Below are positions 18,976-62,481 of a stretch of DNA of 64,000 bases, one piece after another. The notes under the pieces were generated by a model, which saw nothing but the letters and a program-made list of their open reading frames with translations, ran no database searches and had not been told where the DNA came from. The position numbers and the translations under genes are program-made. The DNA comes from an uncultured Lachnospiraceae bacterium (lineage in GTDB: Bacteria > Bacillota > Clostridia > Lachnospirales > Lachnospiraceae). Within the stretch, counting starts at the first letter, position 1. Every line of letters begins with the position of its first letter. The stretch is taken from NCBI GenBank assembly GCA_947173495.1, contig CAMWFQ010000009.1:62001-126000 (forward strand). Direction: 5' to 3'.

Positions 18976-19103
18976 GCGCAAAAAGCAGCGCAGAAAAGGA
19001 GGAAAGATTGAAAATTAAAATTTTCAATCGCGAGATTTGTGTCTGCGCGTTGCTTGCCACAAACTCGATATGCGCAAAAAGCAGCGCAGAAAAGGAGGAA
19101 GAG
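18976..19103 (+). repeat. SD-proximal structured element, family 1, copy A
   Basis: Starts with gcgcaaaaagcagcgcag and SD aaggaggaa, then an AT-rich perfect dyad (ATTGAAAATT/AATTTTCAAT, 19007-19028), the GAGATTTGTG/CACAAACTC hairpin with TCTGCGC in its loop, and then the same 29-bp gcgcaaaaagcag...aaggaggaa segment again just before ATG 19104. GCGCAGA in that tail is complementary to the loop. The inner hairpins present in other copies are missing. The two tails lie 96 bp apart (32 codons), so the frame from TTG 19008 runs into the dehydrogenase. Confidence 0.75.
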
Positions 19104-20129
19104 ATGAAAAGTGCGGTATTTTACGGAAGGCATGATTTGAGGATTGAGGAACATGAAATGCCTGCGGTGGGGACGAAGGATGTTTTGATTCAGGTAAAGG
19201 CCTGCGGTGTCTGCGGGACCGATGTGCACATTTACGAGGGGGATAAAGGAGCGGCGGAGGTGACGCCTCCTGCCATACTCGGCCATGAGTTTTCCGGTGT
19301 GGTGAAAGCGGTGGGATCAGAGGTCACATCCTGTCAGATTGGCGACAGAGTGTGTGTGGATCCCAACTGTTATTGCGGGGCCTGCGATCCCTGCCGAAAC
19401 GGGGCGGCGCATTACTGTGAGCATATGATCGGTTACGGCACCACTGTGGATGGCGGATTTGCTGAGTTTTGCGCGGTGAACGAAAGGCAGGTATACAAGC
19501 TGGGTGAGAACACTTCTTTTGAGCAGGGGGCTATGACAGAGCCGGTGGCATGCTGTCTCCATGGAATCGATATGTGCGGGATCCAGCCGGGTTCTCAAGT
19601 GGTGGTGATTGGCGGAGGCATGATAGGGCTTCTGATGTTGCAGCTTGCAAAACTGGAAGGAGCTGCAAAGGTGGCGCTCTTAGAGCCTGTGCCGGCAAAG
19701 AGAGAGGTGGCGGCAGGACTGGGAGCGGATGTATGTATGGATCCCATTGGCCGGGATGTGAAGGCCGAACTGAAAAAAGCGGGCTTTACCTGGGTGAATA
19801 CGGTGATTGAATGTGTGGGACGCCCTGCAACCATACAGCAGGCGATTGATATAGCCGGAAATAAGGCGGTTGTCATGATGTTTGGCCTGACCAGACCGGA
19901 TGAGACCATTGCGGTGAAGCCCTTTGAGATTTTTCAGAAGGAGCTTTCTCTTAAAGCATCCTATATCAATCCTTATACCCAGAAGCGGGCTCTGGATCTA
20001 ATCGACAGCGGCCGTCTGGACGTGGAGAGCATGATCTGCGAGGTGTGCGGTCTGGAAAAGCTGGAAGAGGTGCTGAGCGATCCGGCAGTGAGAGCAAAGG
20101 GAAAATATGTGATATCTCCGGAGAAATAA
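19104..20129 (+). CDS. Zinc-dependent medium-chain alcohol/polyol dehydrogenase
   Basis: A 341-residue MDR dehydrogenase: catalytic zinc ligands in CGTDVH and GHEFSG, structural-zinc cysteines in CGACDPCRNGAAHYC, Rossmann motif GGGMIG. It likely oxidises a sugar alcohol or related compound. The frame is open far upstream (18819), but residues before 19104 come from the repeat element; ATG 19104 has SD aaaggagga. An alternative in-frame TTG (19008), with its own SD, would add 32 residues starting LKIKIFNREICVCALLATNS. Not part of the 10.6 kb operon because a terminator and a promoter intervene. Confidence 0.88.
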   Translation: MKSAVFYGRHDLRIEEHEMPAVGTKDVLIQVKACGVCGTDVHIYEGDKGAAEVTPPAILGHEFSGVVKAVGSEVTSCQIGDRVCVDPNCYCGACDPCRNGAAHYCEHMIGYGTTVDGGFAEFCAVNERQVYKLGENTSFEQGAMTEPVACCLHGIDMCGIQPGSQVVVIGGGMIGLLMLQLAKLEGAAKVALLEPVPAKREVAAGLGADVCMDPIGRDVKAELKKAGFTWVNTVIECVGRPATIQQAIDIAGNKAVVMMFGLTRPDETIAVKPFEIFQKELSLKASYINPYTQKRALDLIDSGRLDVESMICEVCGLEKLEEVLSDPAVRAKGKYVISPEK

Positions 20130-20140
20130 AAACTCCGGAG
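20116..20140. other. Paired CTCCGGAG palindromes between convergent genes
   Basis: The self-complementary octamer CTCCGGAG occurs twice, 9 bp apart, across the end of the dehydrogenase gene; A-tracts follow. It may form a hairpin between convergent transcripts, but no T-run follows on either strand in the right place. Confidence 0.35.
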
Positions 20141-20155
20141 AAAAAAGGGAAGTCA

Positions 20156-21172
20156 TTATAACCTTTCGGCGGCTTCGCGTAAAATTTTCTGACTTTCGCC
20201 CGGAATTCTTCCAAGGTGATCGGGCCCCACATTTAACAGGTAGTTAATGCCCATTCCGTTTAATTTCTGTTTGATGGAGAGGATTTTATCCGCACTCTTC
20301 CAGTCATGATCCCATGCACAGTACCCCCAGCTGTTGTTTATGGTGGCGGGAGTCTCATACAGGCCGTAGGGGGAGGGCTTGAACCCGCCTCCTTCATTGA
20401 GGCTTGAGGCAGACAGATCCAGTTCCTGATCTGACGGGAAAGAATCCGGTATTTCGTTGTCGCCGAGAGAAACATAATCGTAGGCGCCATTCCCCAGACG
20501 GGAGTTGATCAGGCAGTCCGGCTGATATTTTTTTACCAGGTCAAACAGCTCGCGGCTCTGCGTCTCATTGATGGTTACAGGAACATCAAACCAGATCAGA
20601 CAAAGATCTCCATAGCCCCGGAGAATTTCTTCTACCTGCGGCCGGATCTTATTCCGAAAGCAAATTTCAAAGTTTTTTGTACTGCTGTCGGGATAATCCC
20701 AGTCATTGCATCTGCACCAGGAGGGAGAATCAGGAAGATATCCGCCGCCGTGCTGTTCATGCCAGTCCAGATCCTGAGAATAGTAAAGCCCGAATTTCAT
20801 ATCATACTTGTAGCATGCTTCAGAGAGCTCGCCAATGATATCTCTTCCGAAAGGAGTCGCATCCACCACATTGAACGGATCAACCTTTGAATGAAATAAA
20901 GCAAAGCCGTCGTGGTGCTTGCTTGTGATGACAAAATATTTCATTCCGCAGTCCCTGGCCAGACGGACCCACTCATCGGCATTGAAAAATACAGGATTGA
21001 ATGCCTGGGTGAGTCTGTCATAATCTGTCCTGGGAATGCGCAGGCTGGCCTGGATCCATTCTGACTGGAAATCGCTCTTATTTCCGTTCCATTCGCCGCC
21101 GAGCAGGGAATAAAGCCCCCAGTGCACCATCATGCCATATTGTGCCTCTTTGAACCATTGTCTCATGTCCAT
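20156..21172 (-). CDS. GH29 alpha-L-fucosidase (cytoplasmic)
   Basis: A 338-residue glycoside hydrolase family 29 enzyme. The N-terminal GMMVHWGLYSLLGGEW, the KYFVITSKHHDGFALF strand and LCLIWFDVP (nucleophile Asp) are characteristic; YLLNVGPDHLGRIP closes the catalytic domain. It has no signal peptide and lacks the C-terminal beta-sandwich of longer family members, so it probably trims fucose from imported glycans. SD caggaggt precedes the ATG at 6 nt. It lies downstream of the NahK-like kinase on the same strand. Confidence 0.9.
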   Translation of the reverse strand: MDMRQWFKEAQYGMMVHWGLYSLLGGEWNGNKSDFQSEWIQASLRIPRTDYDRLTQAFNPVFFNADEWVRLARDCGMKYFVITSKHHDGFALFHSKVDPFNVVDATPFGRDIIGELSEACYKYDMKFGLYYSQDLDWHEQHGGGYLPDSPSWCRCNDWDYPDSSTKNFEICFRNKIRPQVEEILRGYGDLCLIWFDVPVTINETQSRELFDLVKKYQPDCLINSRLGNGAYDYVSLGDNEIPDSFPSDQELDLSASSLNEGGGFKPSPYGLYETPATINNSWGYCAWDHDWKSADKILSIKQKLNGMGINYLLNVGPDHLGRIPGESQKILREAAERL

Positions 21173-21288
21173 GTCAAATACCTCCTGATGAAGTTTATGG
21201 TTTTTTCGTCAGCCTTAATGTATCGCAGATTTAAAGATAAGTACATGAGTTTTTCGGACAGGAAAATGGATTTTTTGAATGGCGGAAC

Positions 21289-22377
21289 TTATGCGAAACG
21301 CCGTGTAATTGATTTCATTTCCGCCCACTTACGCTCCATATCAGCGGCCAGCGCCAGCTGGGTCCGGCAGCGGTCCAGATTATGATGTTCTCTGTGGATC
21401 CGGAAATAGGTATCTCCGGAAAGGAAATCTGTGAGAAAGCGCATTCCGCACTCCAGTGTCATCATTTTTGCACCCTCGGGAAGCAGTTCAAGTTCCTGTT
21501 CGGTCAGGCTTCCCTGACAGCCTTGCAGATACCCCTTTACATACAGTTCATACAGATTCAGATCCAGAGATACTTTTGTCAGGTCTGTCTCATCCTCGGC
21601 GGCTGTACAGGCACCAAAACGGATGGAATCCCCGAAGTCGTACAGGGACAGCCCCGGCATGACCGTATCCAGATCGATCACACAGATTCCGGTACCTGTC
21701 TGCTGGTCGATCATAATGTTATTCAGCTTGGTGTCGTTGTGCGTGACACGAAGCGGGAGTTTTTTCTGCTCCAGGAGATCGGTCAGCAGGGAGAATTCTT
21801 TTTTCCGCTCCATGAGGAATGCAATCTCCGGCTTTGCCTGTGCGGCCCGTCCGAAGCTGTCTGCTTCCACAGCCTTGCAGAAGGTTTCGAACCGTCTGGG
21901 CGTATTGTGAAAATCAGGAATGGTTTCGTGGAGCGTGGCAGCCGGATAATCTGAAAGCAGGGACTGGAAATTGCCAAAAGCAACCGCGCTTTCATAAAAG
22001 TCCCGGGGGCTTCTTACCATGTCAAGGCTTACAGAATCCGTAATAAAGTGATACATCCGGAAGCACTTATCGCCGTCTCTGTAATAGCCTTTTCCATCTT
22101 TTGTGGGAATGATCTGCATGGTTTCACGTCCCGGGTCGCCGCCTGCCTGCTCTATTTTCTTTTTCAGGAAGGAGGTTACATTTGCGATATTTTCCATGAG
22201 CTGGTCTGCATCATGAAAGATATCTGTGTTGATCTGCTGGAAAATGTATTTTTTCCGTTTGCCGTCCGCTTCGGTTTCCACCAGATAGGTTCGGTTGATA
22301 TGTCCGTTTCCGTATTCGCATACGCTTACAAGATTTCCTTCCACTGTAAATTGTTGAATCAGTTCCTGTTTTTCCAT
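21289..22377 (-). CDS. N-acetylhexosamine 1-kinase-like phosphotransferase (NahK type)
   Basis: A 362-residue aminoglycoside-phosphotransferase-fold kinase. The catalytic loop is VTHNDTKLNNIM and the metal-binding segment VIDLDTVMPG; the N terminus GNGHINRTYLV gives the nucleotide loop. The arrangement and length match N-acetylhexosamine 1-kinases, which phosphorylate GlcNAc/GalNAc at C1 after phosphorolysis of lacto- or galacto-N-biose. Neighbouring fucosidase and AraC genes fit host-glycan use, but no phosphorylase gene is in the window. The frame opens at 22542; the ATG at 22377 is chosen because it follows atggagt and starts the conserved MEKQELIQQF. Confidence 0.72.
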   Translation of the reverse strand: MEKQELIQQFTVEGNLVSVCEYGNGHINRTYLVETEADGKRKKYIFQQINTDIFHDADQLMENIANVTSFLKKKIEQAGGDPGRETMQIIPTKDGKGYYRDGDKCFRMYHFITDSVSLDMVRSPRDFYESAVAFGNFQSLLSDYPAATLHETIPDFHNTPRRFETFCKAVEADSFGRAAQAKPEIAFLMERKKEFSLLTDLLEQKKLPLRVTHNDTKLNNIMIDQQTGTGICVIDLDTVMPGLSLYDFGDSIRFGACTAAEDETDLTKVSLDLNLYELYVKGYLQGCQGSLTEQELELLPEGAKMMTLECGMRFLTDFLSGDTYFRIHREHHNLDRCRTQLALAADMERKWAEMKSITRRFA

Positions 22378-22380
22378 TTT

Positions 22381-22412
22381 TTTACTCCATTTCTGCGCTG
22401 CTTTCTGCGCAT
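22381..22412 (-). repeat. Tail of a family 1 SD-proximal element (minus strand)
   Basis: On the minus strand, tgcgcagaaagcagcgcag then aaatggagt lies directly before the NahK-like start codon. It matches the 3' tail of the family 1 elements; the hairpins that normally precede it are absent. Confidence 0.5.
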
Positions 22413-22547
22413 AATTTCCCATTTGTTCTGTTTTGACTGTGGCAGAGCGCTGCGTGGAGAAGAGCGTATCTGCACGGTATCGATTGGTTCTGATCATGAT
22501 TGTACAGCAGATCGGCAGAGAGGTATTTGCATGATTTCTCATTGTAT

Positions 22548-22576
22548 TTGCACAATCTGTTATGGTAACATATAGA
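22548..22576 (+). promoter_or_regulatory. Promoter of the AraC gene
   Basis: TTGCAC (22548-22553), 17 bp, then TATAGA (22571-22576), about 80 bp before the AraC start in the divergent region shared with the NahK-like gene. Confidence 0.5.
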
Positions 22577-22635
22577 TACGGACGCTGATGGCGTTTCTGA
22601 AACAGAGGACAGAGTGAAAGCAGTCAATATTGCCT

Positions 22636-22657
22636 GCAGCGCAGAAATGGATTTTTT
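22636..22657 (+). repeat. Tail of a family 1 SD-proximal element
   Basis: gcagcgcagaaatgg followed by atttttt and the AraC ATG. It is the mirror of the fragment before the divergent gene, so both divergent genes begin with the same short tail. Confidence 0.45.
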
Positions 22658-23560
22658 ATGTCATACAGCAGTGTTTATCTGGAACCTCTTATCGAGATTT
22701 CAGAGATTATAACGATTCACTATTTTGAATATGGCTGTGATTTTTCCTTTCCTGGGGAAGCCCATGATTTCTGGGAGTTTCTTTGTGTGGACAAGGGGGA
22801 AATAGAGGTGTTGGCAGGTCAGAGGCATCATATCCTGACCAGGGGGGATATTATTTTTCATGAACCCGACGAATTCCACGGCCTTACGGCAAACCACAGG
22901 ATTGCGCCAAACCTGGTGGTGATCGCCTTCCGTTGTGATTCTCCGGCCATGAATTCCTTCAGGAAGCGTATCTTTGCGACGGACCAGCAGGAGAGGGAGT
23001 TCCTGGCAAAGATTATTGCGGAAGCAAAGGCGGTCTTTCGTGATCCTCTGGATGATCCATATCAGACGCATATGACAAAAAAAGAAGATGCGCCGACAGG
23101 CGCGCTGCAAATCATAAAACTGTATCTGGAGCTGATGCTTTTGCATCAGCTGCGGCGTCTTGGCAGGCAGGGACCGGTTTCGGCGAAAGAAGAAGTGATC
23201 CGCAGAAAGCAGGATGCCCGGGAGTATCATCAGGTGATCTCCTATCTGGATAAGCATCTTTCCTGTCAGCTCACCCTGGAGCAGATTGCGCGGGAGACGA
23301 TGATGGGCAGATCCCGGCTTCAGCAGCTGATCCGCAGATACCATGACTGTGGGGTCATTGATCTTTTTGCCCGTCTTAAGATAGAGCGCGCCCGGCAGCT
23401 GATCCGGGAGAACCGGATGAACTTTACGGAAATATCGGATGTCCTGGGATACAGTTCGATTCATTATTTTTCCAGGCAGTTTAAAAAGCTGACGGGAATG
23501 ACGCCTTCGGAATACTCTTCGTCGATTAAGGGGATAGCGGAAGGAAACCAGCTGCGGTGA
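22658..23560 (+). CDS. AraC family regulator with N-terminal cupin
   Basis: A 300-residue regulator. The N-terminal half is a cupin-type sugar-sensing domain (GDIIFHEPDEFHGLTAN); the C-terminal 100 residues hold two HTH motifs, including LEQIARETMMGRSRLQQLI and FTEISDVLGYSSIHYFSRQF, then GMTPSEY. It is divergent from the kinase-fucosidase operon and probably activates it in response to its sugar. Confidence 0.9.
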   Translation: MSYSSVYLEPLIEISEIITIHYFEYGCDFSFPGEAHDFWEFLCVDKGEIEVLAGQRHHILTRGDIIFHEPDEFHGLTANHRIAPNLVVIAFRCDSPAMNSFRKRIFATDQQEREFLAKIIAEAKAVFRDPLDDPYQTHMTKKEDAPTGALQIIKLYLELMLLHQLRRLGRQGPVSAKEEVIRRKQDAREYHQVISYLDKHLSCQLTLEQIARETMMGRSRLQQLIRRYHDCGVIDLFARLKIERARQLIRENRMNFTEISDVLGYSSIHYFSRQFKKLTGMTPSEYSSSIKGIAEGNQLR

Positions 23561-23620
23561 GCTGCCCGCGCAGCTATCGCTTTCCGGCCGGATTGTACGG
23601 AAAAGAAGACAAAAACAGGA

Positions 23621-25756: not shown

Positions 25757-25878
25757 CCAGCGGTTATAAGCAGATCTGCGAAGAGGAAATATGCCATGAA
25801 AAGGGCAGACAGACCTGCCGTAGAAAAGTGAGTCAGCAGACAGATACCGGTGTAGAAATGATGGAAGAGAGGATGAAG

Positions 25879-26009
25879 ATTGAAAATTAAAATTTTCAAT
25901 CGCGAGATTTGTGTCTGTGCGTTGCTTGCCACAAACTCGTTAATCCATTTTATGGATTTAGCCATATCATGGCTTTGCGCAACAAAGCAGCGCAGAAAAG
26001 GGGATAAAT
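25879..26009 (+). repeat. SD-proximal structured element, family 1, copy B (most complete)
   Basis: In order: AT dyad ATTGAAAATT/AATTTTCAAT (25879-25900); hairpin GAGATTTGTG/CACAAACTC (25904-25938) with TCTGTGC in its loop; hairpin AATCCAT/ATGGATT (25942-25958); hairpin AGCCAT/ATGGCT (25960-25974); then GCGCAGA (25990-25996), complementary to the loop with one G-U pair, 3 nt before SD aggggat and ATG 26010. A frame from TTG 25880 (47 codons, to 26023) overlaps the purF start. The left edge is an SD-like ggatgaag. Confidence 0.8.
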
Positions 26010-27505: not shown

Positions 27506-27596
27506 TGAAAATTTTTCATACGGCTGTTTGTGTCGGAGCGTCACAAATCAGCCCCGATAGCACATCATCGTGCAAACGCTCCGGAATGGAGATAAT
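27506..27596 (+). repeat. SD-proximal structured element, family 2, copy 1
   Basis: AT dyad TGAAAA-t-TTTTCA (27506-27518); hairpin GGCTGTTTGTG/CACAAATCAGCC (27522-27553, one bulge) with the 9-nt loop TCGGAGCGT; small hairpin CGAT/ATCG; then ACGCTCCGG (27576-27584), complementary to the loop, followed by SD tggag and ATG 27597. Same architecture as family 1, different loop and partner sequence. Confidence 0.75.
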
Positions 27597-27695: not shown

Positions 27696-27733
27696 GAGGC
27701 TTATGCGGAAGAGCAGGAAAAATAAATTTAATC

Positions 27734-27935
27734 GGGCAGGAGGTAGGTGAATGAATCACTTACCTCCTGCTTGATTCCCGCGAGCAATGAGCCAAGCGGC
27801 TGCCCATAGATATGCAAAGCATCTCATAGATATTTGGCGAATGCCGCGGGGTTGTTGACTGCACTGGCCCGTAAAGGAAACTCGGTTGCCGGTGCAACAT
27901 GTGCCGCGCAACAGGCGGGAAAAAATTTGGAAAAA
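27734..27935. other. Non-coding structured region, likely dispersed repeat
   Basis: Contains a 15-bp hairpin GCAGGAGGTAGGTGA/TCACTTACCTCCTGC (27736-27770) enclosed by GGGCAG/CTGCCC, then tccctctc-poor sequence with cgcgagcaatgagccaagcgg, ATGC-aaa-GCAT, and a GC-rich stretch (gccgcgggg...ccgcgc, 27843-27916) with several possible stems. No coding frame. It could be an RNA or a repeat; its function is unknown. Confidence 0.4.
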
Positions 27936-27982: not shown

Positions 27983-28070
27983 AGCCTGGTGGATACCGTG
28001 AAAAATAAATTTTTCACGGACAAATTTGTGCTGACGCCCAAATTTGCAGGTGCTGGCAGCCTGGTGGATA
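27983..28070 (+). repeat. Structured insertion with 13-bp direct repeats at the sigma gene start
   Basis: AGCCTGGTGGATA occurs at 27983-27995 and 28058-28070. Between them are a perfect dyad CCGTGAAAAAT/ATTTTTCACGG and the hairpin CAAATTTG-n10-CAAATTTG, the same two-hairpin start as families 1 and 2. The offset is 75 bp (25 codons), so the frame stays open. Removing one repeat plus the insert restores aaaggaggaagcctg followed by GTG GAT AAC. Confidence 0.7.
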
Positions 28071-28316
28071 ACTATGATATTTCATTTGAAGAATATTATG
28101 AAGATGTACTGCGGTTCCTCAGAGGGCTTTCCAGAGACGAATATCTGGCGGAAGAACTGACACAGGAAACATTCTGTCGTGCAATGAAATCCATTCACAG
28201 CTTTCGGGGAACTGTCTTCTAAGGAGATCGCGGAGCTGTTTCAGAAATCGGAGCACTGGGCGTGTGTAACCTATCACCGTGCGAAGGAAATGATCCGGAA
28301 GGAATTGAAGGTCTGA
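27989..28316 (+). pseudogene. ECF-type sigma factor, internal deletion
   Basis: The N-terminal part has sigma region 2 features (FEEYYEDVLRFLRGLSRDE, then AEELTQETFCRAMKSIHSF) and stops at 28222. A different frame then encodes a region 4 HTH (LSSKEIAELFQKSE, VTYHRAKEMIRKEL) to the stop at 28314-28316. The segment between regions 2 and 4 is missing and the join is out of frame, so the gene is broken. It is also preceded by the in-frame structured insertion. The next locus is a broken anti-sigma gene, consistent with decay of the pair. Confidence 0.8.
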
Positions 28317-38485: not shown

Positions 38486-38491
38486 AAACAC

Positions 38492-47104: not shown

Positions 47105-48025
47105 ATGGATGGTAAAAAAAGGAAAAGCAGGATCCGCAGGGCGATACCGCTGTATATTATGGTAGCGCCGGGATTTCTGTATCTCCTGATCAATAATTAT
47201 GTTCCAATGTTTGGAATTGTGATCGCCTTTAAAAATATTAATTTTTCAAAGGGAATTCTGAAAAGCGACTGGGCGGGGCTATCCAATTTTGAATATTTGT
47301 TTAAAGCGCCTGACGCACTGCTGATCACGAGAAATACGCTTCTTTATAATGTGGCGTTTATTATCGTCAATACAGTTGCGGCGATGGTGATCGCCATTAT
47401 TTTAAGTGAGATCCGAAGTAAAGTTAAAGTAAGGATTTTTCAGTCCTGCGTGCTGATCCCGTCTCTGATATCCATTATCATTGTCAGTTATCTGGCTTAT
47501 GCATTCCTGAGCGGAAGGACGGGCTTTGTTAACGGGATGCTTGCAGGAGCGGGCAGAGAAACAATCTCCTTTTATACGGAACCCGAATACTGGCCGGGTA
47601 TATTGATCTTTATCAACTGCTGGAAGGGGGCGGGCTATTCGTCGGTTATTTATCTGGCGGCCATTCACGGAATCGATCAGGAGATGTATGAGGCCGCTGA
47701 AATCGATGGCGCTACCCGCTGGGGGAAAATCCGTTTTATTACACTGCCCATGCTGAAATCCACGGTGATCACGCTCACCCTTTTAAGCATAGGAAGAATA
47801 TTTTATTCTGATTTCGGATTGTTCTATCAGGTGCCGATGAATTCAGGGGCGCTGATCAATGCCACGAACACCATCGATACCTATGTGTACAGAGGATTGA
47901 TTGAGCTGGGGGATATCAGCATGTCATCCGCCGCCTGCGTGTATCAGTCGCTGGTGGGCTTTGTGCTGGTACTGGCAGCGAACCGGATCACCAGAAAATA
48001 CAGTGCGGAAAATGCGTTGTTTTAG
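47105..48025 (+). CDS. Oligosaccharide ABC transporter permease (LplB type)
   Basis: A 306-residue membrane protein with about six segments. The EAA loop is MYEAAEIDGATRWGKIRFI. The frame opens at 46991 through the terminator hairpin; the ATG at 47105 with SD gaggagaa gives a normal N terminus (MDGKKRKSRIRRAIPLYIMV) and is preferred. Confidence 0.9.
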   Translation: MDGKKRKSRIRRAIPLYIMVAPGFLYLLINNYVPMFGIVIAFKNINFSKGILKSDWAGLSNFEYLFKAPDALLITRNTLLYNVAFIIVNTVAAMVIAIILSEIRSKVKVRIFQSCVLIPSLISIIIVSYLAYAFLSGRTGFVNGMLAGAGRETISFYTEPEYWPGILIFINCWKGAGYSSVIYLAAIHGIDQEMYEAAEIDGATRWGKIRFITLPMLKSTVITLTLLSIGRIFYSDFGLFYQVPMNSGALINATNTIDTYVYRGLIELGDISMSSAACVYQSLVGFVLVLAANRITRKYSAENALF

Positions 48026-48033
48026 AGGGAGGA

Positions 48034-48159
48034 AGATTAAAATTTTCAATCGCGAGATTTGTGTCTGCGCGTTGCTTGCCACAAACTCGTTAATCCATTT
48101 TATGGATTTAGCCATATCATGGCTTTGCACAACAAAGCAGCGCAGAAATGGGGATAAAT
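48034..48159 (+). repeat. SD-proximal structured element, family 1, copy C
   Basis: Lies between the two permease genes. Preceded by SD-like gagggaggaag; the AT dyad has lost its left half; then GAGATTTGTG/CACAAACTC with TCTGCGC in the loop, AATCCAT/ATGGATT, AGCCAT/ATGGCT, and GCGCAGA before SD tggggat and ATG 48160. Very close in sequence to copy B. Confidence 0.8.
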
Positions 48160-49056
48160 ATGACTGGAAGAAAAACAGAAAGACGGTATCAGATGATGCT
48201 GACGGTTGTAATGGCAATGATTGCGCTGATTATGGTGATCCCTCTGGCTTTGTTGGTGATGGCTTCTATTACCAGTAACCAGGAGATCGTGCTGCATGGA
48301 TATTCCTTCTGGCCTGGGGAATTCAGCCTGGAGGCATACAGATACATATGGAATGAGAAGGGACAGATTTTCCGTGCCTATGGTATTACCTTTCTGGTGA
48401 CGATTCTGGGGACGGGGATGGGAACCGCGGCCACACTGCTGTATGGCTATGTACTGGCGCATGCTCCGTTTCCGGGGAAAACATTTCTGGCTTTTTATCT
48501 GTTCTTTACCATGTTGTTTAACGGGGGACTGGTACCGACTTACATCATGTACACCCGCTATCTGCATATGAAAAACACAATAGGCGCCCTTATCATACCG
48601 GCGCTTCTGATGAACGCCTTTAATGTAATTCTGGCGCGGACCTATATTCAGTCCAATATACCGGCGGCCTTAAGTGAAGCGGCACAGATCGACGGAGCGT
48701 CGGAATTCCGGATTTTCGGACAGGTGGTGCTGCCGCTGTGCAAGCCCATCATAGCAACCATCGGATTGTTTATCGGGCTTGGGTATTGGAACGACTGGAC
48801 AAACGGACTGTATTATGTGACGGATGCAAAGCTTTTCAGTATTCAGCAGCTTCTGAATAATATGATCAAAAATATTGAATTTCTGTCCAAAAATGCTAAC
48901 AGCAATATCAATCTGTCCAGTATCGGAGGGGGCATTCCCCAGGAGACAGTCCGCATGGCCATTGCGATCGTAGGACTGTTGCCGGTTCTGATGGTATTTC
49001 CCTTTGTCCAGAAATATTTTATCAAAGGAATTGCGGTGGGGGCGGTGAAAGGATAA
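48160..49056 (+). CDS. Oligosaccharide ABC transporter permease (LplC/YtcP type)
   Basis: A 298-residue membrane protein with about six segments and the EAA loop ALSEAAQIDGASEFRIFGQV; it ends KYFIKGIAVGAVKG as usual for this subunit. An ATG at 48148 is in frame, but by analogy with the purF copy of the element the SD ggggat serves ATG 48160. Transport energy presumably comes from a shared ATPase encoded elsewhere. Confidence 0.9.
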   Translation: MTGRKTERRYQMMLTVVMAMIALIMVIPLALLVMASITSNQEIVLHGYSFWPGEFSLEAYRYIWNEKGQIFRAYGITFLVTILGTGMGTAATLLYGYVLAHAPFPGKTFLAFYLFFTMLFNGGLVPTYIMYTRYLHMKNTIGALIIPALLMNAFNVILARTYIQSNIPAALSEAAQIDGASEFRIFGQVVLPLCKPIIATIGLFIGLGYWNDWTNGLYYVTDAKLFSIQQLLNNMIKNIEFLSKNANSNINLSSIGGGIPQETVRMAIAIVGLLPVLMVFPFVQKYFIKGIAVGAVKG

Positions 49057-49110
49057 CAAAAAGCCCGCGCAGAGAAAAGCCATTGCGTAGAAAAGCTACT
49101 GTGTAGAAAA

Positions 49111-49139
49111 GCCCATGAAGGGAAACGCTCTTCATGGGC
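49111..49139 (+). other. Hairpin and short tandem repeats before the fucosidase gene
   Basis: GCCCATGAA/TTCATGGGC forms a 9-bp stem with an 11-nt loop. Just upstream are three imperfect repeats of gcgtagaaaagc (49066-49112). No T-run follows, so this is more likely a processing or stabilising structure than a terminator. Confidence 0.45.
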
Positions 49140-49175
49140 CTGGAAGAATGGGAAAGAAAGGAGAAGAAAAACAGG

Positions 49176-50549
49176 ATGAAAACCACAGAACAAATGAAAT
49201 CCTTTGAGCAGGCGTATAAAAATTATATTCCCGAACAGGTGGAACGTCTGAACGAGAATCAGATGAAATGGTTCCGGGATGCCAAGTTTGGGATGTTCAT
49301 TCACTGGGGACTGTACTCTATGCTGGGAAAGGGCGAATGGGTATTGTTTAAGGAACGTCTGAATGTGAAGGATTATGAAAGACTGGCGGATGATTTTTCT
49401 GCCGTGAAATTTGATGCCCGCAAGTGGGCAAGGACGGCGAAGGCGGCAGGAATGAAGTATATGGTGCTTACCACCCGGCATCATGACGGATTCTGCCTGT
49501 TTGAGAGCAGGTGCAGTTCTTTTCAGGCAATGAACAGTGCGGCTCATAAGGATTTTGTGAGGGAATACGTGGATGCCTGCAGGGAGGAAGGGTTGAAGGT
49601 GGGATTTTATTATTCCCCTCTCGACTGGCGGTTTCCGGGATATTTTATGCCGGATCTGTACTGGGAGAATGCCCTGGAATTGAAGAAGCAGTGCCATGAG
49701 CAGCTCAGGGAACTGATGACCAACTACGGAAAAATTGATCTTTTGTGGTTTGACGGAGAGTGGCTGGCACTGGGAGGAATGGACTGGAATGAAACCGCAG
49801 GGTGGTTTCGCAGGCCGGACTGGGCGATTGGCAAATATATGAAAGTGAACTATTTCTGGGAGTCTGAGAAAATCATCAATGAAATACGGAGACTCCAGCC
49901 CGGGATCATGATCAATAACCGGTTCGGCTGGGAGGGGGACTTCCATGTAAGAGAGCGGAGAATCGACGATATCCGTACGGATAAGCCCTGGGACTCCAAC
50001 GACTGTATTGCAGATTCCTGGGGATATATTCCAGGAAGGCCCGTTTTATCGCTCAGGGAGCTGATTCATAATCTGGTATCCATTGCGGTGCGGGACGGCA
50101 ATTATCTTCTCAACGTAGGACCCGCAGGAGAGGGGGATATGGAAGAGGAGCAGACAGAGCGATTAAAACAGATGGGAGAGTGGCTTGCCTGCTATGGACA
50201 GACACTTTATGGAACCAGAGGCGGCCCTGTGATTCCCGGAAACTGGGGCGGAACCACCTATACCGGCAATACGGTGTATGTCCATATCCTGGAATGGCAG
50301 AAGGAAGGAGTGACATTTTCCATTCCGAACCATAAGCTTATGGCCTGGGGAGCGCTGAATGCAGCCAATGTCCATCTTGAGGAGAAGGAGGGACAGATTC
50401 GGATTGGCATTCCGGTGGCGGACAGGGATCCTTTTGATACCATCATAGAGCTTGTTTTTGACAAGGAAATAGAGTGGGAAGGGATTAAGGGAACGGAAAA
50501 TGATGTTTACGGGCTGGGGGATGGGATACAAAACCGCAGCGCTAACTGA
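49176..50549 (+). CDS. GH29 alpha-L-fucosidase
   Basis: A 457-residue fucosidase: AKFGMFIHWGLYSMLGKGEW, MKYMVLTTRHHDGFCLFES, the nucleophile Asp in LLWFDGEW, and NYLLNVGPAGEGD at the end of the catalytic domain, followed by a beta-rich C-terminal domain from about residue 350. No signal peptide, so it acts on imported sugar. ATG 49176 with SD aaaggag is preferred over 49134, which begins inside the hairpin. Longer than and only distantly similar to the GH29 enzyme at 20156. Confidence 0.92.
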   Translation: MKTTEQMKSFEQAYKNYIPEQVERLNENQMKWFRDAKFGMFIHWGLYSMLGKGEWVLFKERLNVKDYERLADDFSAVKFDARKWARTAKAAGMKYMVLTTRHHDGFCLFESRCSSFQAMNSAAHKDFVREYVDACREEGLKVGFYYSPLDWRFPGYFMPDLYWENALELKKQCHEQLRELMTNYGKIDLLWFDGEWLALGGMDWNETAGWFRRPDWAIGKYMKVNYFWESEKIINEIRRLQPGIMINNRFGWEGDFHVRERRIDDIRTDKPWDSNDCIADSWGYIPGRPVLSLRELIHNLVSIAVRDGNYLLNVGPAGEGDMEEEQTERLKQMGEWLACYGQTLYGTRGGPVIPGNWGGTTYTGNTVYVHILEWQKEGVTFSIPNHKLMAWGALNAANVHLEEKEGQIRIGIPVADRDPFDTIIELVFDKEIEWEGIKGTENDVYGLGDGIQNRSAN

Positions 50550-50598
50550 TTTCTGCGACAGACGAAAAAACATGTACGACTTATAAAACGTCAATCAC

Positions 50599-50649
50599 AC
50601 ATATAAAAAGCAGGATATGCCTTATGAGGATCTCCTGCTTTTTATATGT
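50599..50649. terminator. Strong terminator after the fucosidase gene
   Basis: ACATATAAAAAGCAGGA pairs perfectly with TCCTGCTTTTTATATGT around a 17-nt loop; the stem itself contains A and T tracts, so it can stop transcription from both sides. From here to 50767 there is no gene; a GTGAACG/CGTTCAC hairpin with an AAAAATTTTT core lies at about 50661-50692. Confidence 0.85.
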
Positions 50650-50767
50650 ACGACTTTATAGTGAACGAAAAAATTTTTGTTTTGGCGTTCACGGCACCGA
50701 TTTTGTGTTACGTGAAGGAAACAAGATTTACTCTTGCAAAATTTTGCGCATTCCCTGGAAGAAAATA

Positions 50768-50956
50768 TTAGATTGAGAAATTTTTCACTTCATCCCGCGT
50801 AAGCTCAATCAACTTTTTTCCACATTTTTTTGCATATCTTGAGAGCTCCAGCAAATTCACATGGCAAGAAGGTGCGTTAGCATATGGATCAGGCTGTTCA
50901 TAATAGCTTGGTGAAATGACCTGGTTTTCCATAAACTTAGGTTTCGTTCCATTCAT
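50768..50956 (-). CDS. Small conserved-looking protein, 62 aa
   Basis: Encodes MNGTKPKFMENQVISPSYYE through NLLELSRYAKKCGKKLIELT and ends RDEVKNFSI. Soluble, mixed charge, helical C-terminal half. It starts at ATG 50956 with SD ggaggtg; a longer frame to 50998 exists but lacks an SD. It overlaps a tiny upstream ORF in a two-gene arrangement reminiscent of antitoxin-toxin or regulator pairs, but no family was firmly recognised. Confidence 0.6.
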   Translation of the reverse strand: MNGTKPKFMENQVISPSYYEQPDPYANAPSCHVNLLELSRYAKKCGKKLIELTRDEVKNFSI

Positions 50957-51023
50957 AATGATACACCTCCAATAATTTTTTTGCCTGTTCTTCATCAATA
51001 AAAAATTGATACTGATGAAGCAT
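50937..51023 (-). CDS. Possible small ORF, 28 aa
   Basis: MLHQYQFFIDEEQAKKLLEV then YHYEWNET, overlapping the next gene by 20 nt in another frame; the SD of the next gene lies within it, so coupling is plausible. The frame is open further upstream but those codons lie before the predicted transcription start. SD is weak. Coding is uncertain. Confidence 0.35.
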   Translation of the reverse strand: MLHQYQFFIDEEQAKKLLEVYHYEWNET

Positions 51024-51067
51024 GCCTAAATATTCTGCATGAAAAACATTAATATAATGCTTCAATA

Positions 51068-51097
51068 ATTATATCCTACAGTATCATTATTTATCAA
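51068..51097 (-). promoter_or_regulatory. Promoter of the small minus-strand operon
   Basis: On the minus strand TTGATA (51097-51092), 18 bp, TATAAT (51073-51068). Transcription would begin near 51061. Confidence 0.6.
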
Positions 51098-51135
51098 CCT
51101 AAGAATCAATCTGTTCCCCATTTTCCACACATTTT

Positions 51136-51145
51136 GTGTTATACT
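51136..51145 (+). promoter_or_regulatory. Extended -10 promoter upstream of copy D and the MATE operon
   Basis: The sequence tgTGTTATACT contains an extended -10 (TG-n-TATACT); no convincing -35 box is seen. It would place the structured element copy D in the leader of the MATE operon. Confidence 0.35.
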
Positions 51146-51181
51146 GATTTGTAGTTGGAATTCTCAGGGAACGGAGTGGAA

Positions 51182-51315
51182 GATTGAAAATTAAAATTTT
51201 CAATCGCGAGATTTGTGTCTGCGCACTGCTTGCCACAAACTCGTTAATCCATATTTTATGGATTTAGCCATATCATGGCTTTGCGCAGCAAAGAAGCGCA
51301 GAAATGAGGGAAAAA
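51182..51315 (+). repeat. SD-proximal structured element, family 1, copy D
   Basis: AT dyad ATTGAAAATT/AATTTTCAAT; GAGATTTGTG/CACAAACTC hairpin with TCTGCGC in the loop; AATCCATA/TATGGATT, one base pair longer than in copies B and C through matched insertions on both arms; AGCCAT/ATGGCT; GCGCAGA; then SD tgaggg and ATG 51316. Preceded by SD-like ggagtggaag. The frame from TTG 51184 stops at 51267, so the leader peptide is not conserved here. Confidence 0.8.
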
Positions 51316-51507
51316 ATGGAAAACCGAAAGAAAATACTACGAAACAGAATGCGGCGGGAAAAGGAAATATGGAAGCAGGAAAAGAAGAGGCGGAAATGGA
51401 AGGAAAAGCGGTGGAAACGCATTAATACAAAGATAGAGAGGACAGCAGTCTTCCTGGCGATTGTGGTGTGCATTGTAAGTTCTGTGCTGGAGGCGCAGGA
51501 AAGATGA
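51316..51507 (+). CDS. Small highly basic protein with one membrane segment, 63 aa
   Basis: The first 40 residues are almost all Lys, Arg, Glu and Trp (for example KKRRKWKEKRWKRINTK), followed by a hydrophobic segment TAVFLAIVVCIVSSVL. Start ATG is provided by element copy D with SD tgaggg. It overlaps the MATE start (ATGA). Could be a small membrane accessory or a leader ORF coupling translation to MATE; no family recognised. Confidence 0.5.
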   Translation: MENRKKILRNRMRREKEIWKQEKKRRKWKEKRWKRINTKIERTAVFLAIVVCIVSSVLEAQER

Positions 51508-58403: not shown

Positions 58404-58424
58404 CCGGAAAATCAGGCAATATCG

Positions 58425-59315
58425 TCAGGCTGTGGCACATGAATGCTTCCGGCGATATTCGTTGGGCGTCATGCCGCAGGCCTTTCGGAACTGCTTTCCC
58501 ATATAGGCGCTGTCCGTAAATCCGCAGCGATAACTGATTTCTGTGACAGACAAATCTGAGCGGGAGAGAAGCTCCTTTGCCGCGTTTAAACGATAACTCA
58601 ACAGATATTCAAAAGGGGTCTGACGAATCGTTTTCTGAAAAATCCGGTTTGCTTCTCTCTCTGAAATATTTGCGGCAGCCGCAATCTCTTCCAGAGTAAT
58701 TTTATTCCCAAAGTTTTTGTGAACATAGGACAGCATATTTTTGATGCGGTTTGACTTTTCTGTCTCTATGAGCTGTGATGTTTCAAAATGCGTTTCAATT
58801 TCCTTAAGAAGCAGAAGCCATGTGGCAGACAGGGTATTTCTGATGAGAATTTCCTGGTCCGGCCTGCGGTTTATTTCCTTCAAAAGCACCAGCTGGTCGA
58901 GAACCGCGTCCGCTTCTTTCGTACCTCTTCGGATAATATGAACCGAAATCTGCTGATTCTGCAGAATCGGATTCAGATATTTGGCGGTGATCCGGCTTCC
59001 GAAATGGCCGCCGATAAAGATGGGATGAAAGATGTGGTTGATTTCAAGAGCGGGTTTTCCAGGATTTCCGTTGATCTTTGTATCCACAACATTTGTGTTG
59101 ATAAAGAATCCGTCTCCCTGATGGACCGGATATTCCTGATAGAGGGTCCTTATGATGCTGGTTCCCCGCTCAATATAGCCCAATTCCAGTTCCTCGTGCC
59201 AGTGCCAGGGAACAACAAAATCTGTCATATCCCGTTCATGCATACAATAGGGAAATTCCAGGGTCATGCCATCTATTTTTTCTACCTGATTTTGGTCCGT
59301 AACAAACGTCTGCAT
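58425..59315 (-). CDS. AraC family regulator with cupin domain
   Basis: A 296-residue regulator. Cupin-like N-terminal domain (HWHEELELGYIERGTSIIRT); C-terminal AraC domain with ITLEEIAAAANISEREANRI and VTEISYRCGFTDSAYMGKQF, ending GMTPNEYRRKH. SD gagggt upstream of the ATG. It is divergent from the iron alcohol dehydrogenase gene, its likely target. Confidence 0.9.
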   Translation of the reverse strand: MQTFVTDQNQVEKIDGMTLEFPYCMHERDMTDFVVPWHWHEELELGYIERGTSIIRTLYQEYPVHQGDGFFINTNVVDTKINGNPGKPALEINHIFHPIFIGGHFGSRITAKYLNPILQNQQISVHIIRRGTKEADAVLDQLVLLKEINRRPDQEILIRNTLSATWLLLLKEIETHFETSQLIETEKSNRIKNMLSYVHKNFGNKITLEEIAAAANISEREANRIFQKTIRQTPFEYLLSYRLNAAKELLSRSDLSVTEISYRCGFTDSAYMGKQFRKACGMTPNEYRRKHSCATA

Positions 59316-59464
59316 ATCATACCCTCCTCTTTTGTTTCTAATCTGACAACAACATCAGTATACAATATCCGGCGAGATAATACTACTATATGTCTGAAAA
59401 ATCATATCATATTTCCTGTTTTTGACTTAATATGGAATCATAAAAAAACAGGAGGAGACACATT

Positions 59465-60649
59465 ATGGCGTACAACTTTGAATACTATGCACCCACCAGA
59501 GTATATTTCGGCAGGGGGGAGGAGAAAAATACGGGGAGATACATCCGGAGATATGGAGCCCAAAATGTCATGCTGGTCTATGGCGGAAGCAGTGCCGGCA
59601 GATCCGGGCTGCTGGATCTGATCAGACAGTCCCTGCGTGACGAAAACATAGCTTTCTCTGAGATTGGCGGAGTCGTTCCCAATCCCCATCTTGACAAAGT
59701 GTATGAGGGAATCAGCCTTGGCAGGAAAAACGGAACGGATTTTCTTCTGGCGGTAGGCGGCGGAAGTGCCATCGATACTGCAAAGGCAATCGCCTACGGC
59801 CTTGCGGAGCCGGAGCAGGATGTCTGGGAGCTGTATGAACATACGCGGAAGGCAAAGAAGTGTCTGCCTGTTGCAGGCGTCCTTACGATTGCGGCGGCAG
59901 GAAGCGAGACCTCCAAAGGCAGTGTCATTACAAATGAAAAAACAGGCTCCAAAAGGGCCTATGACGACAACCTTGCAAGGCCGGTATTCGCCATCATGAA
60001 TCCGGAGTATACCGTTACGCTTCCGGATTACCAGACGGAAGCCGGATGTGTGGATATCATGATGCATACCATGGAGCGGTATTTCACAAACGGCGGAAAT
60101 ATGGAGATCACGGATGCCCTTGCGGAGGGACTGCTGAGAACCGTAATGAAAAACGCGGTGATTCTGCATACAGACCCGCAAAACTACGATGCCCGCGCCG
60201 AAGTAATGTGGGCAGGAAGTCTGGCACATAACGATCTGACAGGCTGCGGAAACGACGGCGGAGACTTTATGTCCCATAAGCTGGAGCATGAGTTGGGCGG
60301 GATGTTTGACGTTACCCACGGTGCGGGCCTTGCCGCTATCTGGCCCAGCTGGGCCAGATATGTGAAAGCAAGCTGCCTGCCGCGTTTTGTCCGTTATGCC
60401 GAAAATGTTATGGGCGTTTCCTTAAGGGGAACGGATGAGGAGATTGCCGAGGCGGGTATCAGGGCAATGGAGGGCTTCTATCGTCAGATCGGTATGCCTG
60501 TCAATATGGCAGAGCTGGGGATTGCCCCGTCGGATGAGCAGATCAGAGAAATGGCCGGCAGATGCATGGCGGCCTGCGGAGGGCACACAGGCTCGGCGAA
60601 GGTCCTCACAGAAGAAGATATGGTCCGTATTTATACAAATGCCAGATAG
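59465..60649 (+). CDS. Iron-containing alcohol dehydrogenase (butanol dehydrogenase type)
   Basis: A 394-residue group III alcohol dehydrogenase. NAD(P)-binding motif LAVGGGSAIDTAKAIA; metal ligands expected in GCVDIMMHTMERYF and HKLEHELGGMFDVTHGAGLA. The N terminus YNFEYYAPTRVYFGRG is typical of BdhA/YqhD-like enzymes that reduce aldehydes with NADPH. SD aggagg before the ATG. Confidence 0.93.
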   Translation: MAYNFEYYAPTRVYFGRGEEKNTGRYIRRYGAQNVMLVYGGSSAGRSGLLDLIRQSLRDENIAFSEIGGVVPNPHLDKVYEGISLGRKNGTDFLLAVGGGSAIDTAKAIAYGLAEPEQDVWELYEHTRKAKKCLPVAGVLTIAAAGSETSKGSVITNEKTGSKRAYDDNLARPVFAIMNPEYTVTLPDYQTEAGCVDIMMHTMERYFTNGGNMEITDALAEGLLRTVMKNAVILHTDPQNYDARAEVMWAGSLAHNDLTGCGNDGGDFMSHKLEHELGGMFDVTHGAGLAAIWPSWARYVKASCLPRFVRYAENVMGVSLRGTDEEIAEAGIRAMEGFYRQIGMPVNMAELGIAPSDEQIREMAGRCMAACGGHTGSAKVLTEEDMVRIYTNAR

Positions 60650-60664
60650 AAGGAGGAACAAGCA

Positions 60665-60904
60665 TTGAAACTATTTTCCATTCCCGATGCGGGAAGTTTT
60701 CTTAATTTGGTAAACAGCAGTCAGGGCGATGTAACACTGCATCTGCCGGACGGAAACCGGCTGAACCTGAAAAGAAGCCATACTGCTCAGCAGCTTTTTC
60801 AGATCATGCATCCCGGACAGTCCGGCCTGCAGATCAGCTTGTCCAATTCAGCAGATACGCCGGCCTTTATTCGATACATGATGGATGCCGTCAAACGCCC
60901 ATAA
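60665..60904 (+). CDS. Small conserved-looking protein, 79 aa
   Basis: MKLFSIPDAGSFLNLVNSSQ, GDVTLHLPDGNRLNLKRSH, TAQQLFQIMHPGQSGLQISL, SNSADTPAFIRYMMDAVKRP: an alpha/beta protein whose size and pattern are vaguely like HPr or a small carrier fold, without the HPr active-site His. The start is TTG with a strong SD aaggagg at 8 nt. It follows the alcohol dehydrogenase by 15 bp and is probably co-transcribed. Function unknown. Confidence 0.65.
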   Translation: MKLFSIPDAGSFLNLVNSSQGDVTLHLPDGNRLNLKRSHTAQQLFQIMHPGQSGLQISLSNSADTPAFIRYMMDAVKRP

Positions 60905-60935
60905 GAAATGGTCAAGCTGTTTTACTCTCAATTGT

Positions 60936-62222
60936 TTAGAAGGAATAATGCTGCACCTCTCCCCCTCTTTCCCGTGACCTCTCCGCCAGAAAGACCAGAC
61001 GGTGTCCGGTCATGGAGTCCTCTAAAGTGGTGTGGCAGGAGGATACCTCTTCTCCTCTGAGCATGGCAACAAAATCCCGGACGATGGCCTGATCGCCGCC
61101 GCCGTGGGCATTGCCCTTCTGAAGATCAGAGACATCGATCATCTGAAGGCGTCTGCCTTCGGGCGCGCAGGGATCGATGCGGGAGATGGTAAAGCACTGC
61201 TCCTCAAAGATGCCTGAAATTTCTCCCCGGGTGCCGGTAATGTGAATGTGCCGGCCGGAGGCGGAGGCCCCTCCGTTCATGGAAAAGGTGCCGGTTGCGC
61301 CGCCTGCAAAGCTGATCAGCAGGGACTGATGGTCCACAACAGGTATATCACAGCGGTAGACGCAGCGGCTAAAGGGCTGGTCCGGTTCTGAGAGGATGCG
61401 CATCTTTTCTTCATCGGAACCGGCCCGGCTGCCGTAATCGCGCCAGATGTTGTTTGCCCAGCGCTGGGGGTGCTCCACATACAGACGTCTGGCGGAATAG
61501 ATACAGCTTCGTTCTATGGGACAGTCTAAAAGACAGTGGCTTCCGGCGCCTTCGGGGGCCATCTCAGGACGGAACTGGAACTGGGATCCTGCGCTGGATA
61601 CGCTCAACGGACGAACATTGCCCATGAGCCATGCCATGATATCCAGATCGTGGCTGCATTTGGAAAGCAGCATGCCGGAGCCGCACAGCTCAGGGGAGGC
61701 ATACTTTCCCCGGACATAGGAAACAGAGTGGTGAAAAAAGCTCACCTGCTCCGCCATATGAATGTTGATGATATCGCCGAGCTCTCCAGCTGTGAGAGCT
61801 TCTTTTATTTTACGGTAAAAGGGGGCATAGCGCAGTACATGGCAGATCATCACATGCCTGCCGGTTTCTCTGGCGCAGCAAAGGAGCCGGTCTGCTTCTT
61901 CCTGACTGACCGCAAAGGGCTTCTCCAGAAGGATATCATAGCCGTGCCGAAGCAGGGGAAGGGAGGTGGGAACATGGAGCTGATCCATGGTGCCGTTGAT
62001 GACAGCGGCGGCAAAGCGGGGGACAGCTGCCAGCTCTTCCACCGACGAAAAGCAGTGCCCGTCAGGGATATGGAACATATTCTGCGCCTGGCGCAGCTTC
62101 TGTGGATCCACATCTGCCACGCCCACAATGCGGAGCAGATCAGGGTGCGATAATGCTTCACGGGCATAGATGGATGCGCGCTCCCCCATACCCACAACAA
62201 TGACCGGAATCGGATTTGGCAT
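60936..62222 (-). CDS. Gfo/Idh/MocA family oxidoreductase
   Basis: A 428-residue dehydrogenase: nucleotide-binding start PVIVVGMGERASIY (a GxGxxA variant), the EKP motif in ILLEKPFAVS, and CSHDLDIMAWLMG near the active site. It is longer than usual, with a Cys-containing insert (CLLDCPIERSCIYSARRLY) typical of a subgroup acting on modified sugars. ATG 62222 with SD caggagg; the frame extends to 62489 through the family 2 element but has no start signal there. Divergent from the response regulator. Confidence 0.85.
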   Translation of the reverse strand: MPNPIPVIVVGMGERASIYAREALSHPDLLRIVGVADVDPQKLRQAQNMFHIPDGHCFSSVEELAAVPRFAAAVINGTMDQLHVPTSLPLLRHGYDILLEKPFAVSQEEADRLLCCARETGRHVMICHVLRYAPFYRKIKEALTAGELGDIINIHMAEQVSFFHHSVSYVRGKYASPELCGSGMLLSKCSHDLDIMAWLMGNVRPLSVSSAGSQFQFRPEMAPEGAGSHCLLDCPIERSCIYSARRLYVEHPQRWANNIWRDYGSRAGSDEEKMRILSEPDQPFSRCVYRCDIPVVDHQSLLISFAGGATGTFSMNGGASASGRHIHITGTRGEISGIFEEQCFTISRIDPCAPEGRRLQMIDVSDLQKGNAHGGGDQAIVRDFVAMLRGEEVSSCHTTLEDSMTGHRLVFLAERSRERGGEVQHYSF

Positions 62223-62346
62223 AAAAAATCCTCCTGACTTTACCAATAGTACAAAGCTTGTTTTTGAAAATGGCTTATGATACCATAGATCAGAAGAGAT
62301 TGCAATACTGATGTGAAAAGAATTTTCGCCCGATAAGAGGTAATAG

Positions 62347-62481
62347 TGTGAAAAATCACACTGATGTGCTGATTTTTCACACGCAAATTTGTGCCGGAGC
62401 GTCACAAATTTGTTTGATGATAGACGCAAATTGGAGATTTGCGTCATCCCGTCGCGTAAACGCTCCGGAATGGGGATTTTT
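62347..62481 (+). repeat. SD-proximal structured element, family 2, copy 2 (most complete)
   Basis: In order: dyad GTGTGAAAAATCA/TGATTTTTCACAC (62347-62382); perfect 10-bp hairpin CAAATTTGTG/CACAAATTTG (62384-62412) with loop CCGGAGCGT; hairpin GACGCAAAT/ATTTGCGTC (62423-62445); then ACGCTCCGG (62460-62468), an exact complement of the loop, followed by SD tggggat and ATG 62482. Preceded by an SD-like agaggt. Confidence 0.8.

Follow-up and report, generated by a model that had tools for sequence, protein, structure and literature searches.

Why does a short, structured sequence recur immediately before the start codons of unrelated genes in one stretch of bacterial DNA? The stretch in question, hereafter the window, comprises 64,000 nucleotides (nt) of contig CAMWFQ010000009.1 from an uncultured Lachnospiraceae bacterium, whose 4.58 Mb genome is termed G000. 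The original prediction, drawn from the sequence alone, named six places carrying an AT-rich dyad, a hairpin and a segment complementary to the hairpin loop beside a Shine-Dalgarno (SD) sequence. Direct reading of all six confirmed these parts, which are a dyad, a TTTGTG/CACAAA hairpin, usually further hairpins, the partner segment of the loop, an SD and an ATG. We consider it reasonably probable that the copies belong to families of protein-less mobile elements, about 85-150 nt long, that are adapted to ribosome-binding sites and have a pseudoknot that abuts a second SD.

In the arrangement that we propose, the element inserts between the SD and the start codon of a gene, in the orientation of that gene. 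The left flank would usually keep an SD and the right end would bring a second one, so that the interrupted gene could still be translated. The RNA between both SDs is predicted to fold into the dyad, the hairpin of the TTTGTG/CACAAA type and, in many copies, further hairpins. The loop of the TTTGTG/CACAAA hairpin would pair with a segment ending a few nucleotides before the second SD, which would result in a pseudoknot. Perhaps the main job of this fold is to pack the insert and to tie up the sequence beside the second SD, which would leave that SD usable and the insertion tolerated. In many copies, a short frame that begins in the dyad and is read from the first SD may also add to the flow of ribosomes into the gene.

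Abundance of the element and its spread among genomes

There are 93 matches to the pattern TTTGTG-N6-24-CACAAA in G000, as against 4 for the control, which is the same pattern reversed and searched in the same genome. Close reading covered 64 of these 93 sites as well as 68 sites in other genomes. A partner with a start codon 6-29 nt beyond it was found at 53 of the 64 sites in G000; eight of the 11 misses are by eye still copies that are degenerate, have lost the start codon or have a short following open reading frame (ORF), and the remaining three (L045, L050 and L065) are chance-like by eye. In the other genomes 55 of the 68 sites pass, two of which (L079 and L089) are chance-like by eye and were later removed. 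Copies beyond the six that keep the loop-partner complementarity therefore exist both in this genome and elsewhere. A blast search of G000 with one element listed 42 matches, including the query itself and one 24-nt palindromic match (40 of 119 candidates were scored).

The same architecture is found in eight other genomes of the family to which the window genome belongs and in one genome of another family. Among 299 surveyed genomes of the family, 15 (that of the window included) contain 20 or more sites, with a count no lower than three times that of the control, as counted by eye. The exact pattern of family 2, one of several sequence families of the element, is absent in four of these 15 (G024, G127, G164 and G253). 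In a survey of the order (246 genomes, some of them again from the same family), counts outside the family are mostly near those of the control. G419, a member of another family, has 37 sites against 0 for the control, and the same element architecture was read there. Many of its contigs stop inside or beside an element (e.g. L295-L297 and L299-L304); assemblies break at such points, and counts of copies from draft genomes are thus probably too low. Three other genomes of the order survey had raised counts; the listed sites of G532 and G557 are unlike the element, and those of G572 were unlisted. G532, which represents a different family of the order, carries another dispersed hairpin, TTTGTGTATTTGAGGCATGGACAAATGTCCACAAA and variants thereof.

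Blast of a family-1 element matched 13 unannotated human-gut phage records, only over part of the query (44-49%), and nothing in plasmids, and a search of IMG/VR for the exact family-2 pattern was negative. There is a single pattern match in 80 named purF loci (541 kb) and it is chance-like.

For re-tests we used 144 entries with a single orientation per site and with partners set without complementarity, from which L079, L089 and the wrong-strand L246 had been removed. After this clean-up, there are 54 entries from G000, 29 from G196, 17 from G061, 15 from G094, 11 from G218, 10 from G264, 4 from G173 and 2 each from G253 and G273. An earlier set of 153 entries, including 6 sites in both orientations, had been selected in part for complementarity between loop and partner, and the scoring used for this prefers G.U to A.C. 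The alignment, the fold-accessibility modelling, the initial counts of first SDs and leader frames, and the initial G.U and A.C counts, those of the second hairpin among them, drew on this earlier set, and the re-tests on the 144 entries gave the same outcome.

Pairing of the hairpin loop with the segment before the second SD

An exact complementary run of at least 6 nt within the 26 nt before the SD is present in 116 of 155 cases, compared with 1600 of 17336 cross-pairs between different loop classes. The 155 are all site-orientations with an SD and ATG 30-190 nt downstream, and some sites are counted in both orientations. Each loop class has its own partner, and the loop/partner classes are CCGGAGCGT/ACGCTCCGG, CCGAAGCGT/ACGCTTCGG, CCGCAGACGC/GCGTCTGCGG, CGAGAACGC/GCGTTCTCG, TCTGCGGTG/CACCGCAGA, TCTGCGCTGC/GCAGCGCAGA and TGTGCACTT/AAGTGCACA. 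These counts agree with the original prediction that the loop pairs with the SD-adjacent segment and that the pairing is kept while the sequences differ.

The best represented copies are family-2-like. In all 73 of these whose partner was set by GAAT or GAAC before the SD, at least 7 of 9 positions are paired. Their helices contain 39 G.U pairs, 1 A.C and 25 other mismatches (27, 1 and 18, respectively, among the 28 distinct helix strings). The large excess of G.U over A.C suggests that the helix acts in the RNA of this strand. An earlier count of 25 G.U against 1 A.C was biased by a complementarity-based choice that favours G.U. The second hairpin, with 8 G.U and 10 A.C, has no strand bias.

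An alignment of 49 family-2-like copies, taken from 55 (both sets pre-selected for complementarity), was compared with a structure that includes the pseudoknot. In this alignment 97.6% of the cells are paired, and the value drops to 30-47% when the partners are slid. Cells changed on both sides number 113, compared with 36.8 in shuffles, and RNAalifold recovered the loop-partner helix unprompted. The stem of the first hairpin is invariant because the search pattern requires it, and it is thus uninformative on covariation. These results support the maintenance of the loop-partner pairing by compensatory change, and the proposed covariation is likewise supported.

Position between two SDs

The copies in the window, all of which are on the plus strand, are as follows.

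18976..19005 (+), remnant 3' end (partner and SD) of an older copy that is truncated; it now provides the copy that follows with its first SD
19006..19103 (+), family-1 element: dyad 19006-19029, hairpin 19036-19063, partner GCGCAGA 19084-19090, SD, ATG 19104 of a zinc alcohol dehydrogenase
25878..26009 (+), family-1 element: dyad 25878-25901, hairpin 25908-25935, partner 25990-25996, SD, ATG 26010 of purF
27506..27596 (+), family-2 element: dyad 27506-27518, hairpin 27527-27547, partner ACGCTCCGG 27576-27584, SD, ATG 27597 of a 32-codon ORF
27983..28073 (+), seventh element, family 4: repeats 27983-27995/28058-28070, dyad 27996-28019, hairpin 28021-28046, ATG 28074 of a 28-codon frame
48035..48159 (+), family-1 element: partly deleted dyad 48035-48051, hairpin 48058-48085, partner 48140-48146, SD, ATG 48160 of an ABC transporter permease
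51182..51315 (+), family-1 element: dyad from 51182, hairpin 51212-51239, partner 51296-51302, SD, ATG 51316 (ATG 51304 in frame)
62346..62481 (+), family-2 element: dyad 62346-62382, hairpin 62388-62408, second hairpin, partner ACGCTCCGG 62460-62468, SD, ATG 62482 of a response regulator

Some details of the original prediction require adjustment. The copy placed at 18976 does have a partner and SD there, but these are only the truncated 3' end of an older copy, and the fuller element is located at 19006-19103. The 3' ends of the two have a common 26-nt direct repeat and are arranged in tandem. In addition, an AT-rich dyad is generally present, but that of the copy at 48035 is partly deleted. 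By eye, the loop-partner helices of the copies at 25878 and 27506 each require one G.U pair.

An SD-like tetramer is located 8-14 nt before the start codon of the dyad in 71 of 81 copies, whereas at positions 20, 30 and 40 nt further upstream there are only 8, 4 and 9 of 81. Together with the SD at the right end, this means that a first SD precedes the element, the start codon follows it, and the element itself ends in a second SD, an arrangement that the original prediction had not noted. The dyad includes a start codon in 81 of 99 cases, and none is found in the other 18 by the rule used.

Within-genome permutation indicates a greater likeness between the left and right SD regions of one copy than between those of different copies in G061 (n=14, p<1e-4; at least 8 nt in common in 11 of 14 copies, against 11.5% of cross pairs), in G094 (n=12, p<1e-4) and in G196 (n=20, p=1e-4). 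The likeness persists when only non-tandem copies are considered (G061, 7 of 10 against 14%, p<1e-4; G094, n=7, p=0.011; G196, n=19, p=1e-4). For G419 the value is p=0.023 with 9 copies, and the samples are tiny for G218 (n=3, p=0.16) and G264 (n=4, p=0.04). Thus, a signature of target-site duplication has statistical support in G061, G094 and G196 and is weak in G000. A scan of the window for direct repeats picked up a single copy out of the seven, along with two further matches, where the control leads one to expect 3.4 on the same strand, and therefore adds little.

The seventh element (27983-28076), which is unrelated in sequence to families 1 and 2, is bounded by 13-nt direct repeats, AGCCTGGTGGATA, that hold the SD. 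Its loop, TGCTGACGCC, is able to pair with GGTGT and CAGCA before the SD, as judged by eye only. The 28-codon reading frame that follows is probably degraded. Positions 28074-28230, downstream of this element, hold broken remains that by eye resemble a sigma-factor reading frame. To characterise family 4, 20 related stretches from same-genus genomes were fetched from among those listed. A family-4 pattern matched 19 of the 21 sequences (window included) and yielded 20 elements, since L319 holds two in tandem; L315 and L325 were missed by the pattern, yet have a similar layout in the alignment. There are 17 elements with SD and ATG among the 20, 15 followed by an ORF that has at least 60 codons or is open at the end of the stretch, and 16 with a left SD. 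The second SD seems to be element-borne in some families and a duplicate of the first SD in others.

Pfam scans covered 20 of 58 listed downstream frames, 4 of the 58 being wrong-orientation entries. The genes include purF and those for SAICAR synthetase, CoaE, an omega-like RNA polymerase subunit, ArgR, a Trp repressor, FeoB, formamidopyrimidine-DNA glycosylase, transport permeases, a response regulator and a PALP enzyme (tryptophan synthase beta by eye). Where leuC- and leuD-like genes of the aconitase family lie side by side (L023 138-1640), each is preceded by a copy of its own. The 20 scanned proteins are of unrelated function, as the original prediction had it for the genes in the window. 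Two FeoB-like genes of one genome (L035 by Pfam, L046 by eye) each have a variant copy.

Mobility, translation and the rival explanations

The element is patchily distributed between relatives. It is absent from the 330 nt preceding purF in six same-genus loci (G333, G330, G331, G325, G303 and G310), and the copy before a Sua5-like gene (identified by eye) in G196 has no counterpart in the 70 nt before the start codon in nine relatives. Tandem copies, left-truncated copies, several sequence families and the separate copies before the neighbouring leuC- and leuD-like genes are on record, all of which fit mobility, and on the strength of this distribution we infer that the element is mobile. A vertically inherited regulatory leader of a single regulon would explain the conserved fold and the fixed position before start codons, but patchiness between relatives, distinct sequence families, tandem copies and unrelated genes make it very improbable. 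A metabolite riboswitch was also rejected, given the 20 unrelated downstream proteins and the different sequences of families 1, 2 and 4. Thus, where the original prediction preferred a mobile or regulon-wide switch over a metabolite riboswitch, mobility and the poorer fit of a riboswitch hold up, but there is no positive evidence for a regulon-wide switch.

What the fold does for translation was approached by modelling. The nested folds of six window copies have z-scores of -0.89 to -5.05, the latter belonging to the copy at 62346..62481, and nested folding by itself decides little. The modelled accessibility of the SD was compared with and without the loop and partner taken up, using copies pre-selected for complementarity. 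When both are taken up, mean accessibility would rise from 0.28 to 0.45 in family-2-like copies (73 copies) and from 0.26 to 0.47 in other copies (5), with little change, from 0.50 to 0.57, in families 1 and 3 (47 copies). The family-2 partner contains CTCC and would otherwise pair with the SD at a mean modelled probability of 0.37, so that in this family, though not in general, the knot would free the SD. In family 2 (e.g. window 27576-27592) the loop holds GGAG, which mimics an SD, and CTCC of the partner completes an anti-SD/anti-anti-SD layout. This layout is not seen in families 1 and 4. The original prediction that a pseudoknot occludes or positions the SD is therefore sustained as to the pairing and not as to general occlusion.

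One alternative is a translational switch, in which the pseudoknot blocks the 30S subunit at the second SD until ribosomes on the short leader frame, or a factor acting there, melt it. The first SD suits this proposal, as does a leader frame that stays open across the hairpin in 73 of 81 copies (0 and 24 of 81 for the other two frames) and that stops no more than 30 nt from the main ATG in 32 of 81. Moreover, the partner lies within the expected 5' edge of a 30S footprint. However, the dyads that lack a start codon, several G061 copies that read GTG-TAA, hairpin spacing that varies by non-multiples of three, and downstream genes without a common pathway are difficult to reconcile with it. Partner pairing is also kept in 32 of 43 copies without a detected left dyad, compared with 81 of 92 with one, and in some of these 43 the dyad is weakened or displaced. 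We consider such a switch unlikely. The accessibility, leader-frame and dyad-less-copy results cause us to rank tolerance of the insertion first and a coupled switch second. We rejected the idea that a leader peptide is the only product under conservation; GTG-TAA variants and dyads without a start codon occur.

Several observations weigh against mobile elements whose insertion is tolerated through the pseudoknot. No transposition event was seen among the data compared, and the relatives with empty sites are about 75-80% identical, so that junctions are unreadable to the base. Searches of nine carrier genomes found no match to PF01797 (Y1 transposase) in G000, G094, G196 and G218, with matches in the other five, and no match to RVT_1 (the reverse transcriptase expected of a retro-element) in G094, G218 and G173, with matches in 6 of 9 carriers and in 8 of 9 comparison genomes; the mobiliser may have been lost from the genome or missed by the search. 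Modelled SD accessibility falls from 0.43 to 0.22 in the G094 type (15 copies) on taking up loop and partner. In the 49-copy alignment, further pair types number 23, against 22.9 in shuffles, pairs with a double change are in modest excess (9 against 6.6), and double changes are mostly in the second hairpin (8 of 11 pairs), with 1 of 9 pairs in the pseudoknot within family 2. Copy L183 is a hybrid in which loop and partner belong to different classes and are mismatched. SD duplication is weak in G000 (n=43, p=0.009; non-tandem n=38, p=0.03; at least 8 nt in common in 4 of 43), and by another measure on slightly different sets the value is p=0.068. Finally, the right SD is nearly constant, and not copied, in family 4 and in much of G419; that of family 4 probably travels with the element.

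The pairing might instead serve movement, with the folded RNA or a single DNA strand acting as substrate of the mobilising machinery, and with the SD address arising from target choice and selection. Both the left-truncated copies with intact right ends and the direct repeats that contain the SD in three genera resemble what copying from the 3' end would yield. The second hairpin, whose changes have no strand bias, points the same way. The RNA-strand bias of the pseudoknot does not separate a role in movement from one in translation. Intact right ends may merely reflect selection for the SD, neither Y1 transposase nor RVT_1 is common to the carriers, and no longer, enzyme-coding or autonomous version was found by eye among the fetched stretches, including copies near the contig ends of G419. 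On balance a role in movement is doubtful, though it deserves to be kept in mind alongside tolerance of the insertion, which we continue to prefer.

The element matches no described family that we compared it with. Rfam 15 at the gathering threshold gave 0 matches in the window and in nine loci of several families, and a loose E-value search of window 47900-51450 only gave two unrelated families far below their cut-offs. No such element is described in the titles and abstract openings that a literature search returned, with subscription journals mostly outside reach. The ends, set by eye from alignments, are GTGTGAAAAA/GTGTAAAAAA.. or CTGTGAAAAA.. on the left and ..CTCCGG or ..GCAGCATGGAGG on the right. 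They do not pair as terminal inverted repeats, and a classical DDE-type miniature inverted-repeat transposable element (MITE) was therefore rejected. An attC/integron site and a CRISPR-like repeat were set aside on consideration alone.

MITEs and short interspersed repeats such as BOX, RUP, Correia, bcr and REP/REPIN are short, protein-less, multicopy sequences with dyad structure and a patchy occurrence between relatives, and the element resembles them in all of these respects. Unlike them, it is located between SD and start codon in one orientation, brings a second SD and has a covarying pseudoknot, and neither of its ends is repeated inverted at the other. Members of IS200/IS605 have subterminal hairpins, pair a hairpin region with the element end and are not known to make direct repeats. 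Derivatives of these share with the element the subterminal hairpins and the pairing of a hairpin region with the end; however, SD-containing direct repeats occur in some genera of carriers, and a REP/REPIN or IS200/IS605 derivative was rejected because four of the nine high-copy carriers have no match to the Y1 transposase (TnpA/RAYT). In translational pseudoknot riboswitches (preQ1, SAM-II and the like), a loop pairs at or beside the SD, as does the loop of the element, but the element is dispersed before unrelated genes and matches no Rfam family. The IS607 family is described as having neither terminal inverted repeats nor target duplications and as encoding tnpA, a serine recombinase (PMC6188088). 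The element is similar in its lack of terminal inverted repeats and differs in having no enzyme and in the SD-containing direct repeats of some genera.

As a kind, the element is a short interspersed element that is distinguished by its address, its re-supplied SD and its covarying pseudoknot. It is possible, and we put this forward tentatively, that it constitutes a separate class of mobile element for ribosome-binding sites, which inserts between SD and start codon, re-supplies or duplicates the SD, and has a pseudoknot, maintained by compensatory change in sequence families that are unrelated, that keeps the gene translatable or puts it under translational control. Bacterial gene starts are usually regarded as hostile to insertions. 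If the proposal is true, the dozens of copies located there, including those before purF and the omega-like gene, would illustrate how translation can render mobile DNA harmless or even useful. The copies would also represent a natural library on how structure beside an SD affects initiation, and they are relevant to start-codon annotation in Lachnospiraceae. They pose the question of which machinery places DNA precisely between an SD and a start codon.

At 27762-27854 and 27730-27776, the window has a separate repeat, up to 94% identical to places in G264, and beside it an inverted repeat with 21-nt arms around GGAGGTAGGTGA. It is not one of these SD-site elements.

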